Shown one piece after another: positions 602 to 4,113 of a stretch of 37,090 nucleotides of DNA. Below the pieces are notes generated by a model. That model saw nothing but the letters and a program-made list of their open reading frames with translations, was not told where the DNA came from and did no database searches. The DNA lies in IMG/VR virus record IMGVR_UViG_3300037504_000106, positions 1 to 37,090 of that record. The stretch is one strand, 5' to 3'. Position 1 is the stretch's first letter; each line of letters opens with the position of its first letter. The DNA is from a virus. Made by a program: the position numbers and the translations under genes.

Positions 602-1026
602 CGCTTCCCCTCCCGCTTCCGCCGCGCCTTCGAAAGGCGCTCGTCGTAGCCGGGATTCCCGGTCTTCCCCAGGCTCTTCGCGAGGAGGTTGTGGTACGTC
701 TCGATGTAGGCGAACCCGCAGTGCGGGCAGGTATCCCGCGTACCCTGCAGGTAGCTCCACTTCGCCTCGCAGCACTCGCACTGAACATCGAAACCCGACC
801 GATTGCCTGCGGTCTTCAGCGCCGACCCGGTAGCACGCGCCGCCTCGTAGAGCGTGTTGACCCCGACGTACTGGCCCGGCGAGCGGTTGACCTGCAGCCA
901 GTGCTTGATCTCTCGCAATGCCGCAGGCGGTGCCGTGTCGACGGTCGCCTCGATCTCAGCGCCTATCGCGGTTGTGACCTTGCTAAAATAACTCTCGACC
1001 CACTGCACAAACTCACTCGGACTCAT
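598..1026 (-). CDS. Zinc-ribbon protein of unknown function (142 aa)
   Basis: The product has a helical N-terminal half and a C-terminal four-cysteine zinc ribbon (CECC near residue 83, CPHC near residue 100), ending in a very basic tail (KARRKREGKR) that suggests nucleic-acid contact. The ATG is preceded by GAGGAGG seven bases upstream and overlaps the stop of the replication-type gene as ATGA; its own stop overlaps the next start the same way. It therefore belongs to the replication block. I do not recognise a named family. A DNA-binding accessory role is an inference from the ribbon and the basic tail. Confidence 0.8.
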   Translation of the reverse strand: MSPSEFVQWVESYFSKVTTAIGAEIEATVDTAPPAALREIKHWLQVNRSPGQYVGVNTLYEAARATGSALKTAGNRSGFDVQCECCEAKWSYLQGTRDTCPHCGFAYIETYHNLLAKSLGKTGNPGYDERLSKARRKREGKR

Positions 1027-2009
1027 GTGGCAACCTCCTCGCCGTAGCGCTCGGGATACATCCGCGCGAGGTATGCCTTACGCGCGGCCTCGCGGTCCTC
1101 AGGCGTAGGGGATGCTATCGCGCCGTTTGCAGCGAGCTCGTTGACGTGTCGGTGAAACTGGCGAATGGAATACTGCCCGTCCTCGGTGAACCAGTACTCG
1201 CCGGTGTAGTAGCGCCTGAGTCTGGTCATAGCCTCGTCGAACCCGAGCTTCTTGCGGACCTGCTGCAAGTGCTTCCCGTCCTCGCCGCTGAACGCGTACG
1301 GCGTGCCGGTAGCCTGCTGGTGCAGCGACATCGCCGCGTCGACGAGTTGCTGGTGCTCGCTCGGCGGTTTGGCTGGCGCGGCCTGTGGTTCCGGCTCGGG
1401 GTCGTCGTGAAACAGCTCAGGTGTCGAGTCTGCGTTATCCACAGAGTTATCCACAGGCTCATCATGCCGGTGACCGGAATCGGTCACCACTAGCGAAGCT
1501 AGTGTCTTATTCTTATCTCCTAGAGTATCCTGTTCTATTCTAGCTACGTTTTGCTCTGGCACCGCTTTAGCACTGCTAGGTTCTGCTATAGCACTGCTAT
1601 CCTCTTGCTGTAGCACTGCTTTAGCACTGCTACGTCCTGCTTTAGCAAGTCCACCCTTCTGCCCTGCCGCCTGTTTGGCTCGCTTTTTCTCTTCCCAAGC
1701 CTCCATTCGACGGTTGAGAGACTCCGACCAGAAATGCTCTCCGTCTGACTGGAATAGGTCGAACTCCTCTATGCACGCCGTAACGAACTCCTGCGACTGC
1801 TCGGGCGTACACATCATCTTTTTCGCGAGTGCCGACCAGATGTACCCTTTCGTCTTGAGCTTGTAGCCGTCCGTGCGTCTGAGTACCTCGATGACGATCC
1901 AGAACATGCCGTAGCCAGCGACGCCATACCGCAACATGAGCGCTTCGATCTTGATGTCGGTGTGCGCTCCCGCATCGTGTGTAAACCAATAATCGTCTTT
2001 GTTTGTCAT
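1023..2009 (-). CDS. DUF4373-type replication initiator-like protein (328 aa)
   Basis: The N-terminal ~90 residues carry the DUF4373 (Lin1244/Lin1753-type) pattern: HDAGAHTDIKIEAL, GVAGYGMFWIVIE and a conserved tryptophan/tyrosine-rich core. Such proteins occur in phage replication modules, often beside DnaD-like parts. The middle (about residues 110-215) is low-complexity, rich in A, S, E and D, and is encoded by repeats and DnaA boxes that look like an origin. The C-terminal third is helical and resembles the DnaD/DnaT-like tails of phage initiators. I chose ATG 2009, which has GGTGAGG directly upstream; the longer open frame runs through the tmRNA-like element and is not coding. A role in replication initiation is inferred from domain and origin, in analogy to lambda O. 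Confidence 0.85.
   Translation of the reverse strand: MTNKDDYWFTHDAGAHTDIKIEALMLRYGVAGYGMFWIVIEVLRRTDGYKLKTKGYIWSALAKKMMCTPEQSQEFVTACIEEFDLFQSDGEHFWSESLNRRMEAWEEKKRAKQAAGQKGGLAKAGRSSAKAVLQQEDSSAIAEPSSAKAVPEQNVARIEQDTLGDKNKTLASLVVTDSGHRHDEPVDNSVDNADSTPELFHDDPEPEPQAAPAKPPSEHQQLVDAAMSLHQQATGTPYAFSGEDGKHLQQVRKKLGFDEAMTRLRRYYTGEYWFTEDGQYSIRQFHRHVNELAANGAIASPTPEDREAARKAYLARMYPERYGEEVAT
1435..1632. other. Candidate replication origin inside the initiator-like gene
   Basis: Read on the plus strand, the region contains two perfect DnaA boxes TTATCCACA at 1435-1443 and 1447-1455. These are followed by an 8-bp inverted repeat (1469-1476 with 1481-1488, loop GAAT) and a 7-bp inverted repeat (1488-1494 with 1498-1504, loop GAA). 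Next comes an AT-richer stretch at about 1504-1556, then four iterons (1568-1632). This combination within a replication-initiator gene mirrors the lambda ori arrangement inside gene O and iteron plasmid origins. Individual elements are seen directly; origin function is inferred. Confidence 0.65.
1568..1632. repeat. Four phased iterons TAGCACTGCT(A/T)
   Basis: The palindromic 11-mer TAGCACTGCTA occurs at 1568-1578, 1589-1599 and 1622-1632, with a one-base variant at 1611-1621. Start-to-start distances are 21, 22 and 11 bp, close to whole helical turns, so bound proteins would lie on one face of the DNA. Partial copies (TGCTTTAGCA near 1637-1646) flank the array. In the protein the repeats encode alanine- and serine-rich, poorly conserved sequence, as expected if DNA function constrains this part of the gene. 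Confidence 0.75.
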
Positions 2010-2021
2010 CCTCACCCCTGC

Positions 2022-2099
2022 TGGACGCGCCGGGATTCGAACCCGGGTGCGCCGCGTGCCGCGTGCGGCCTCTCGCGACGTCGAAACCATCCCACGCCC
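2022..2099 (-). ncRNA. tmRNA-like tRNA-like domain without an mRNA domain
   Basis: On the minus strand, GGGCGTG (2099-2093) pairs with CGCGTCC (2029-2023) as a seven-base acceptor stem including a G3-U70 wobble, with A73. The T arm is perfect (CCGGG, loop TTCGAAT, CCCGG). There is no U33 and no possible anticodon loop. Instead, the segment after the acceptor reads GGATGGTTTCGACG, with the spacing and sequence of the tmRNA 5' end. The remaining bases can form one long stem (GTCGCG with CGCGGC, capped by GCCG-CACG-CGGC) where tmRNA would have helix 2 and its mRNA-like domain. No CCA is encoded (GCA follows A73). The tRNA-like fold is well supported; the tmRNA derivation is inference. Confidence 0.6.
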
Positions 2100-2392: not shown

Positions 2393-2394
2393 AG

Positions 2395-2468
2395 GGTGAC
2401 CGGCGGGAGTCGAACCCGCCGCCTCCGCGTCCACAGCGCGGCGCTCTACCACCTGAGCTACAGCCACC
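2395..2468 (-). tRNA. tRNA-His (GTG)
   Basis: The cloverleaf is complete. The acceptor GTGGCTG pairs with CGGTCAC (two G-U wobbles). The D stem is GCTC/GAGC. The anticodon stem CCGCG/CGCGG holds the loop CTGTGGA (anticodon GTG), and the T arm is GCGGG/CCCGC with loop TTCGACT. The extra G at position -1 (2468) and C73 (2395), the histidine-specific pair, are both encoded. CCA is not encoded. It lies downstream of the early block in the noncoding 2010-2626 region and probably supports late translation. Confidence 0.95.
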
Positions 2469-2510
2469 ATATCCCCACCGACCCTACTGGTGATCAACGA
2501 CGCGCGTTGA

Positions 2511-2621
2511 CGTTCAGGTCGGCAGGGCGCCGGGCTTCCACCGGCCGCATCCTAGTCGCTTAGGATTCTTGCTGTTTTAGTACGCCAAACAACGCACAGC
2601 AAATCGTTCAGGTCGGTAGGA
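2511..2621. repeat. Two 17-bp near-identical direct repeats (CGTTCAGGTCGG...)
   Basis: CGTTCAGGTCGGCAGGG at 2511-2527 and CGTTCAGGTCGGTAGGA at 2605-2621 differ at two positions. A shorter copy of the core (CGTTCAGACG) is at 2321-2330. The copies lie upstream of and beside tRNA-His on the transcribed minus strand. Between them is a 6-bp hairpin ATCCTA/TAGGAT. They could be protein-binding sites or relics of a duplication; nothing identifies the partner. No gene is seen in 2469-2626. Confidence 0.6.
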
Positions 2622-2959: not shown

Positions 2960-3171
2960 CGCTCTGCCTCCTCGGCCATGCGATATATCCACTGCGCGAC
3001 GTCATTGTGGAGCTCAGCGTCCATGGCGAGTAACTGCCTGCCCACCTCCCGCAACGTCTCCGCACGGCACAGGCGCAGCTCGGTCTCAATTACACTGATA
3101 GCACTCTCATACGCTGCTAACGACGACGTGTACATTAGCTTGGCGATGGCCCTCTTTGCTAGGTCAGTCAT
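2956..3171 (-). CDS. Small helical protein (71 aa), EEA-tail family
   Basis: An ATG with GGAGG six bases upstream opens an all-helical, charged protein starting MTDLAKRAI and ending RMAEEAER. Both ends are shared with the 27-residue product encoded at 3360-3443, so the two are paralogues with different middles. The C-terminal EEA codons supply the GAGGAGGC ribosome site of the next gene, and the stop overlaps that gene's start. Function unknown; the gene appears to be a member of a small-gene cassette series. Confidence 0.75.
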   Translation of the reverse strand: MTDLAKRAIAKLMYTSSLAAYESAISVIETELRLCRAETLREVGRQLLAMDAELHNDVAQWIYRMAEEAER

Positions 3172-3382
3172 CGTCGGCCTCCTCGGGAACCGTTATGTCA
3201 CCCCGGTAGTTAGTGCCATCACCGGTGATTATAAGACACTCTGTATCGTCATCGCTCCAAGCTTCGACCTTAGCACCGGACCCTTTATTCGCGGCTCGTA
3301 TTATGTCCTGCTCGACTCGTGTCTCGGGGTAAAGTTTGAGTCTCCACGATCTATCTGTTTCAAGTATCATTCTCGCTTTCAT
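3164..3382 (-). CDS. Hypothetical acidic protein (72 aa)
   Basis: The ATG at 3382 is preceded by GAGGAGGCAGAGA from the coding sequence of the upstream mini-gene. The product is a mix of short beta-like and charged segments and ends in a very acidic tail (PEEADDD). The codons of EEA once more provide GAGGAGGC for the following gene. No family is recognised. The start overlaps the upstream 27-residue reading frame by 23 bases in a different frame, a compact arrangement typical of phage early genes. Confidence 0.7.
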   Translation of the reverse strand: MKARMILETDRSWRLKLYPETRVEQDIIRAANKGSGAKVEAWSDDDTECLIITGDGTNYRGDITVPEEADDD

Positions 3383-3443
3383 TCTCTGCCTCCTCGGCCA
3401 TGCGGCGTAGATAGGTGATTGCCTCTTTCGCTCGGTCAGTCAT
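3360..3443 (-). CDS. Mini-protein (27 aa), shortened paralogue of the 71-aa protein
   Basis: The 28-codon frame has ATG 3443 with GGAGG six bases upstream and ends in TGA at 3360. It reads MTDRAKEAITYL joined to RRMAEEAE, matching the first twelve and last eight residues of the 71-aa protein encoded at 2956-3171 with the central region missing. A 21-bp stretch (3384-3404) is identical to 2962-2982. It may be an expressed mini-protein or the relic of a duplicated gene that now serves to carry the ribosome site of the next gene. Confidence 0.55.
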   Translation of the reverse strand: MTDRAKEAITYLRRMAEEAENESENDT

Positions 3444-4113
3444 CAAACTCCTCCCCTCGCTTGTGCTCTCTGCCGGTGAACCAGTCGCGCGAAACACATG
3501 TGCCATCCGTGAGGCTAAACGCATCTACATCATCGTCAGGATCGTATCTATCAACGGCGTACCACAGTCCATCGTCCAACCACCATAGCTGCCGGTCCAT
3601 TATGGTTGACAGCGGCACTTGCTCGGGCTCGGCGTCGCCGGTGATTTTGTAGCGGTGGATAGAGACTAACAAATCCCAACGCAAGAGGTCGAAATTGACC
3701 TCAGTGCTTTCGTAATCCCAGCACCCGAGCTTCCCCCGAGTCTCATCGGGTTGACCCTCTCCGGGCGTCCAGTCCCGCCAGCCGTCGTCAACGCCTCGGT
3801 AGGCGATGATGTCCCAGGCACCCCCGTTGTGATGCCATCGCTGCTCAGCCGCAGATCCGTGCGCAGGTAATGCCCCGCTACGATACACAACCTGTACGAC
3901 GGTATCTCGACCTACGGGGCACTCCCCGCTTTCCCATACGGTCCAGCCGTCGTCGACGCCGAGGGTCCAGTCAGGCGGGATAGTGCGTATCCAATCACCG
4001 TACTTGTCACCGAGTAGTATATTTACGTACTCGTCACGGCTGTATTCCTCGACCTCATACGGCCCGCTGTACCTGTCGTTCCCGGGCCATCTCACGTAGC
4101 ATTTTTTCACCAT
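3436..4113 (-). CDS. Tryptophan-rich repeat protein (225 aa), function unknown
   Basis: ATG 4113 has AGAGGA seven bases upstream; a TTG two codons earlier is too close to that site. The protein contains two copies of a tryptophan-rich motif (GVDDGWTVWESGECPV near residue 53 and GVDDGWRDWTPGEGQP near residue 108), with GECPV and a following beta strand as in phage proteins of the 'DGW...GGECPV' type. It is acidic and rich in W, D and G. No enzymatic motif is visible. It lies in the early block between small genes and its start overlaps the previous stop. It is a conserved-looking but unnamed phage protein. Confidence 0.75.
   Translation of the reverse strand: MVKKCYVRWPGNDRYSGPYEVEEYSRDEYVNILLGDKYGDWIRTIPPDWTLGVDDGWTVWESGECPVGRDTVVQVVYRSGALPAHGSAAEQRWHHNGGAWDIIAYRGVDDGWRDWTPGEGQPDETRGKLGCWDYESTEVNFDLLRWDLLVSIHRYKITGDAEPEQVPLSTIMDRQLWWLDDGLWYAVDRYDPDDDVDAFSLTDGTCVSRDWFTGREHKRGEEFDD

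Follow-up and report, generated by a model that had tools for sequence, protein, structure and literature searches.

A phage-encoded tRNA-like domain of tmRNA without its mRNA domain, and its relatives in other phages

In the virus record IMGVR_UViG_3300037504_000106 (37,090 nucleotides, analyzed at full length and referred to here as the window), a 78-nt element at positions 2022 to 2099 of the minus strand is, as judged from its sequence, the tRNA-like domain (TLD) of a transfer-messenger RNA (tmRNA) in which the mRNA domain has been replaced by a small hairpin. An earlier note, made from the letters of this DNA, had read the element as a tmRNA TLD with no mRNA domain and a closed helix 2, and both the alignment to the Rfam tmRNA model RF00023 and the covariation found among phages bear out this core reading. 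Comparative analysis places the element in a broad, covarying family of putative TLD-only phage RNAs. The kind was already known from one phage, DS6A, and the element adds another member.

Structure of the element and its match to tmRNA models

We confirmed the element at these coordinates. Read from 2099 down to 2022, it runs GGGCGTG-GGAT-GGTTTCGAC-GTCGCG-AGAGG-CCGCACGCGG-CA and then CGCGGC-GCAC-CCGGGTTCGAATCCCGG-CGCGTCC-A, with the following parts.

2022 to 2099, minus strand: complete element, putative TLD-only tmRNA gene (69.4 bits with the covariance model R1; RF00023 aligned over positions 1 to 374)
2093 to 2099, minus strand: acceptor stem, 5' strand GGGCGTG, pairing with 2023 to 2029, with G3 opposite U70
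2080 to 2088, minus strand: tmRNA D-region GGTTTCGAC, correctly spaced and matching the tmRNA consensus, kept in relatives
2074 to 2079, minus strand: helix 2, 5' strand GTCGCG, pairing with 2051 to 2056
2059 to 2068, minus strand: inner hairpin CCG-CACG-CGG, where a tmRNA would have its mRNA domain and pseudoknots, conserved in the 75- to 82-nt subtype
2051 to 2056, minus strand: helix 2, 3' strand CGCGGC (covariation and R1 match)
2047 to 2050, minus strand: linker GCAC just before the T arm, mostly GGAC in relatives
2030 to 2046, minus strand: T arm CCGGG-TTCGAAT-CCCGG, perfect (sequence, fold, and R1 match)
2023 to 2029, minus strand: acceptor stem, 3' strand CGCGTCC, including U70 (sequence and relatives)
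2022, minus strand: discriminator A73; CCA is not encoded and GCA comes next

The acceptor has seven pairs (GGGCGTG/CGCGTCC), with G3-U70 and A73, and lies 4 nt from GGTTTCGACG, while helix 2 has six pairs and is closed and capped by the small hairpin in the computed fold. The acceptor with its alanine signature, the T arm, the lack of an anticodon loop, and the spacing of the D-signature, all claimed in the earlier note, were thus verified in the sequence. The element has neither the anticodon arm (with its 7-nt loop) nor the D arm of a canonical tRNA. It carries the D-region GGNTTCGAC, helix 2, and T arm of a tmRNA, but lacks the resume codon, the tag frame with a stop, and the pseudoknots that a tagging tmRNA would have. 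Its folding energy is no evidence either way, since the minimum free energy gave z = -0.02.

When a 121-nt stretch around the element was scanned, RF00023 aligned from model position 1 to 374 (36.3 bits, E = 1.1e-13), with 306 model positions represented by 13 nt, i.e., a small hairpin in place of an mRNA domain of ca. 300 nt. A search of the whole record gave 44.9 bits (E = 1.9e-18), just under the gathering cut-off of 47 bits. At gathering thresholds, Rfam called only a tRNA-His and a tRNA-Met over the window, and ARAGORN gave the same two genes, calling the element neither tRNA nor tmRNA. An E-value-based Rfam scan of 1.5 kb also missed it; RF00023 appeared only with the 121-nt or the whole-record search. 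The same cut-off was passed by 28 of 30 records carrying relatives (members), over a span of ca. 80 nt. The earlier note had proposed checks with tmRNA covariance models and with a model built from related phages. RF00023 aligned end to end, and the second model, R1, recovered the element at 69.4 bits (E = 5e-16), with the next-best match in the window at 19.9 bits. R1 was built from 20 other phage sequences, the window being excluded from the seed, and it was restricted to members with linkers of equal length because MAFFT put the acceptor in the wrong place when linkers were unequal.

Three other identities were rejected. A canonical or odd tRNA was ruled out by the ARAGORN and Rfam tRNA non-calls, and a permuted tmRNA (RF04321) by the standard gene order and a score of 13.1 bits (cut-off, 47 bits). 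Against a fragment of a longer tmRNA stands the lack of any further tmRNA piece in the searches of the window.

The element shares with the standard one-piece tmRNA (RF00023) the acceptor with G3-U70, A73, the D-region, helix 2, and the T arm, in the same order, but it has 78 nt against 374 model positions and lacks the resume codon, tag frame, stop codon, and pseudoknots. Its closest known counterpart is that of mycobacteriophage DS6A, whose tmRNA is described as "TLD only" in two papers (PMC4131195; PMC11915505, citing Mao et al. 2009). Like the element, which comes from a virus record and by its RF00023 alignment is little more than a TLD, the DS6A gene is a phage gene with little beyond this domain and no tag frame; the likeness is argued from form and description, and the window belongs to another phage. 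A 2025 database paper classes nine among 97,179 tmRNA sequences as "standard, no CDS" (coding sequence), and also lists plastid tmRNAs of Mallomonadaceae, apparently CDS-less and ca. 65 bp long (PMC11915505). The latter, likened here by description, are TLD-only and of a size like that of the 60- to 65-nt phage subtype described below, but they are organelle encoded. Mitochondrial tmRNAs without a tag frame (RF02544; PMC11915505) usually have permuted genes, in contrast to the standard order of the element. Full tmRNAs are also carried by phages, sometimes in tRNA arrays, as in Streptomyces phage Forrest and Gordonia phage GMA2, or in permuted form, as in Pseudomonas phage SM1; unlike the element, these match the models over their full length, and ARAGORN found a tag frame in Forrest and SM1. 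Above-cut-off full or permuted tmRNA genes were without annotation in the records of Pseudomonas phages SM1 (L426) and PA_L9 (L433), Xanthomonas phage Rb1 (L427), Gordonia phage GMA2 (L428), and Salinibacter phage SRUTV-1 (L430). The tRNA array of GMA2 also holds a Pistol ribozyme (56.8 bits, L428:1842-1898, plus strand). In a limited search of the open-licence literature, we found no description of TLD-only genes as a phage family.

Relatives in phages and covariation of helix 2

An exact-sequence scan gave no matches. A blastn search of phage records detected unannotated relatives inside the tRNA arrays of Streptomyces phages Shaeky, LuckySocke, and GiJojo. We then scanned IMG/VR for GGTTTCGAC and the T arm 18 to 48 nt apart, which gave at least 120 stretches; the GGATTCGAC variant of the pattern gave 62. 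Candidates were kept with at least six of seven acceptor pairs and four of five T-stem pairs, without selecting for G3-U70 or helix 2. The first scan gave >100 relatives, and 105 distinct viral members were counted among the matches listed. Among those passing the filter, 134 of the 139 viral candidates listed had G3-U70; by eye, one exception (L234) resembles an ordinary tRNA and another (L157) a damaged copy. In the first scan, A73, G1-C72, and G2-C71 were present in 84 of the 84 distinct sequences listed with G3-U70, while acceptor pairs 4, 5, and 6 varied by compensatory changes. As the count of 84 was taken on G3-U70 carriers, 134 of 139 is the unconditioned figure for that pair. The earlier note had staked its claim on conservation of the acceptor, the T arm, and GGTTTCGAC in related phages; all three are conserved, and the claim survives.

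Most members belong to one of two length subtypes, 75 to 82 nt with the inner hairpin or 60 to 65 nt in which helix 2 is simply closed, and a few fall between or outside them. In the 20 members with equal linkers, helix 2 showed both-sided changes at all six pairs, and 98.8% of cells were paired, compared with 72.7% in shuffles; pairing fell to ca. 48% when the partner was shifted by one base. The covariation was also seen over 84 matches, in an alignment that had been fitted to the R1 model. One contig (L189) has two TLD-like copies 1.2 kb apart (5-81 and 1317-1392, plus strand), the upstream one with an altered T loop and a lower score (43.8 versus 52.6 bits), which may be a decaying duplicate. 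At L359:2976-3318 (plus strand), a 343-nt tmRNA predicted by ARAGORN and an 82-nt TLD-only candidate have the same 3' end; the longer call is probably an extension by chance.

Model matches were found in nine isolated phages of three host genera: Shaeky, LuckySocke, GiJojo, pSt2308, BRock, Alone3, and Riptide on Streptomyces, Jojan60 on Stenotrophomonas, and phiPsal1 on Pontimonas. Hence, compared with the single phage DS6A, the relatives of the element span several host groups. Jojan60 and phiPsal1, which were found by blastn, also carry the D-region GGNTTCGAC. The Alone3 and Riptide copies may be decaying, since their D-region is damaged and the T stem mismatched, with G3-U70 retained. Together with BRock, they carry the TLD copy directly after a tRNA-Val (BRock L423:1491-1568, Alone3 L424:1479-1555, Riptide L434:1477-1553), and the altered D-regions with intact G3-U70 in the three phages could represent a series of functional change or decay. 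ARAGORN and the deposited phage annotations left the TLD-only gene unlabelled in the cases checked.

The same pattern was run on a sample of a bacterial and archaeal genome collection of 84,980 species. It gave at least 119 stretches, and no TLD with G3-U70 was present in the 130 occurrences among the matches listed. A stricter pattern, which matches 63 of the 105 distinct viral members, gave none in 396 and 398 genomes of two phyla (794 in total). SmpB was not detected in 30 member records at the sensitivity of the search, which was positive in ten control genomes.

The comparison among relatives also bears on the suggestion of the earlier note that the gene is a relic of ssrA capture at an attachment site, and on a pseudogene as another origin. 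The tmRNA gene does serve as the integration site of cluster K mycobacteriophages (PMC10865867). In the Validus record, a 29-nt 3' match lies next to the integrase, and the Alone3 and Riptide copies look decayed. However, dozens of distinct sequences contain both halves of the molecule and a helix 2 that covaries, whereas attachment cores typically carry only the 3' part of an RNA gene. Among the scanned proteins of the window (a subset of its reading frames), none was recognized as an integrase. The covariation largely refutes a relic, and we regard this origin as very improbable.

Proposed function and its alternatives

SmpB, alanyl-tRNA synthetase, and EF-Tu all bind the TLD of tmRNA (PMC3929946, PMC3985003). 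In the element, the sequence marks for these three partners are retained, and the template is missing. The D-region is the part of the TLD that faces SmpB. We consider it somewhat probable that the element gives rise to a decoy RNA, charged with alanine, that engages host SmpB and stalled ribosomes and so inhibits host trans-translation. The transcript would be trimmed in the manner of a tRNA and receive CCA; host alanyl-tRNA synthetase would charge it with alanine through G3-U70 and A73, and the charged RNA would bind host SmpB and EF-Tu and enter ribosomes stalled on broken mRNA. Because a TLD-only RNA has no template, it could not add the proteolysis tag. Host trans-translation would be inhibited as SmpB is taken up and stalled ribosomes are competed for, and either phage proteins would escape tagging or host control through trans-translation would be weakened.

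Interference with host trans-translation is the best-supported reading because inhibition by a similar RNA is published: according to PMC4131195 and PMC11915505, tmRNA is strongly inhibited by a similar molecule, whether or not this can be charged, perhaps through titration of SmpB, and PMC11915505 places this inhibition in E. coli. Among the three functions put forward in the earlier note, competition with host tmRNA fits best with this work. The end-to-end RF00023 alignment, G3-U70 in 134 of 139 listed candidates, the covariation of helix 2, and the lack of detected SmpB in the 30 member records are in line with a decoy. We favor a charged decoy that would enter stalled ribosomes since G3-U70 is nearly universal while neighboring pairs vary, and a passive SmpB sponge needs no such pair.

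Several points weigh against this proposal. Expression, charging, and SmpB binding of the element are all predicted from sequence. The nearly universal G3-U70 hints at a function that requires alanine, whereas the published inhibition is independent of charging. The Riptide and Alone3 copies, with a changed D-region and G3-U70 kept, are hard to reconcile with SmpB binding, except as genes in decay.

The retention of G3-U70 and A73 almost without exception among the matches listed suggests that charging is selected, and this would also suit tag-less rescue, in which the alanine-charged TLD with host SmpB takes over the nascent chain and clears stalled ribosomes without a tag, possibly by template-free addition of alanine. 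To our knowledge, there is no route for peptide release without a stop codon. A TLD fragment with SmpB produced template-free polyalanine in vitro, as stated in PMC3929946 (citing Shimizu and Ueda 2006), and in mitochondria, tmRNAs lacking a tag frame have been conserved alongside SmpB (PMC11915505). Yet the effect published for a similar molecule, in PMC4131195, is inhibition of tmRNA, and we treat tag-less rescue as the main alternative, but a tentative one. Less likely still is its extension to the whole phage family, by which these RNAs would be alanine-charged, template-free rescue adaptors that, with host SmpB, take nascent chains from stalled ribosomes in infected cells and release or alanine-tail them untagged, and so replace host trans-translation instead of only blocking it.

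The positions of the genes relative to tRNA genes point in two directions. A tRNA gene lies within 500 nt in 26 of 133 members, on the same strand in 25 of these 26, and several members are located in dense tRNA arrays with an RNA ligase gene nearby, as would be expected of a stand-in tmRNA relative, free of tag codons that a toxin could cut, with which the phage would help to repair or replace the translation RNAs of its host. However, 103 of the 133 members have no tRNA gene in the stretch examined, so the TLD-only gene is not simply a component of tRNA arrays, and tmRNA tagging could not be replaced without a tag frame. Such a stand-in is, in our opinion, decidedly unlikely.

The Riptide and Alone3 copies, in which the alanine identity elements are kept despite an altered D-region, might instead suggest that the RNA acts independently of SmpB, as a decoy to which alanyl-tRNA synthetase or EF-Tu binds, or as an alanine donor for a nonribosomal reaction. 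Most members keep the D-region GGNTTCGAC, which would be needless without SmpB; this region was a requirement of the pattern scans, and Jojan60 and phiPsal1, coming from blastn, carry it independently. An SmpB-independent role is thus given very little credence here, and the SmpB-directed decoy remains our preferred reading.

Genomic surroundings and significance

The genes for terminase, portal, capsid, and tape measure mark the window as tailed-phage DNA, and its closest portal matches, at <40% identity, come from phages of several phyla. Two neighboring features flank the element.

2394 to 2467, minus strand: tRNA-His(GTG), upstream, 294 nt from the element (ARAGORN and Rfam)
1023 to 2009, minus strand: gene for a Lin1244/replication-initiation-like protein, downstream (Pfam PF14297, phrog_2562)

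The tRNA-His and the element could possibly be cotranscribed, as they lie on the same strand 294 nt apart. The start codon of the Lin1244-like gene is placed 12 nt past the 3' end of the element, as suggested by AGGGGTGAGG-ATG. Directly beside the tRNA-His, positions 2469 to 2531 (minus strand) gave a weak match to the DUF3800-VIII RNA (30.0 bits versus a cut-off of 40.2). Among loci fetched through the TerL, helicase-methylase, and Lin1244 proteins of the window phage, many of them partial contigs, the pattern detected no copy of the element, and neither did the covariance model in most of these loci, which were searched with it. One contig (L003), whose terminase is 97% identical to that of the window, has long intergenic degenerate repeats of short units (2215-2625 and 3125-3560, ggcatggcaaggc-like), as has L189 (510-690, ggtcgcggtcgc-like).

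The TLD-only tmRNA was previously a curiosity; there are now at least 100 such putative genes in viral contigs, together with nine isolates, as against zero in the sample of cellular genomes. Since these genes are widespread in phages and none was found in the sampled cellular genomes, phage interference with ribosome rescue is likely to be a general theme. The proposed interference is testable in culturable phages of Streptomyces and Stenotrophomonas, and the near-universal G3-U70 offers a clean single-pair test of how important charging would be.
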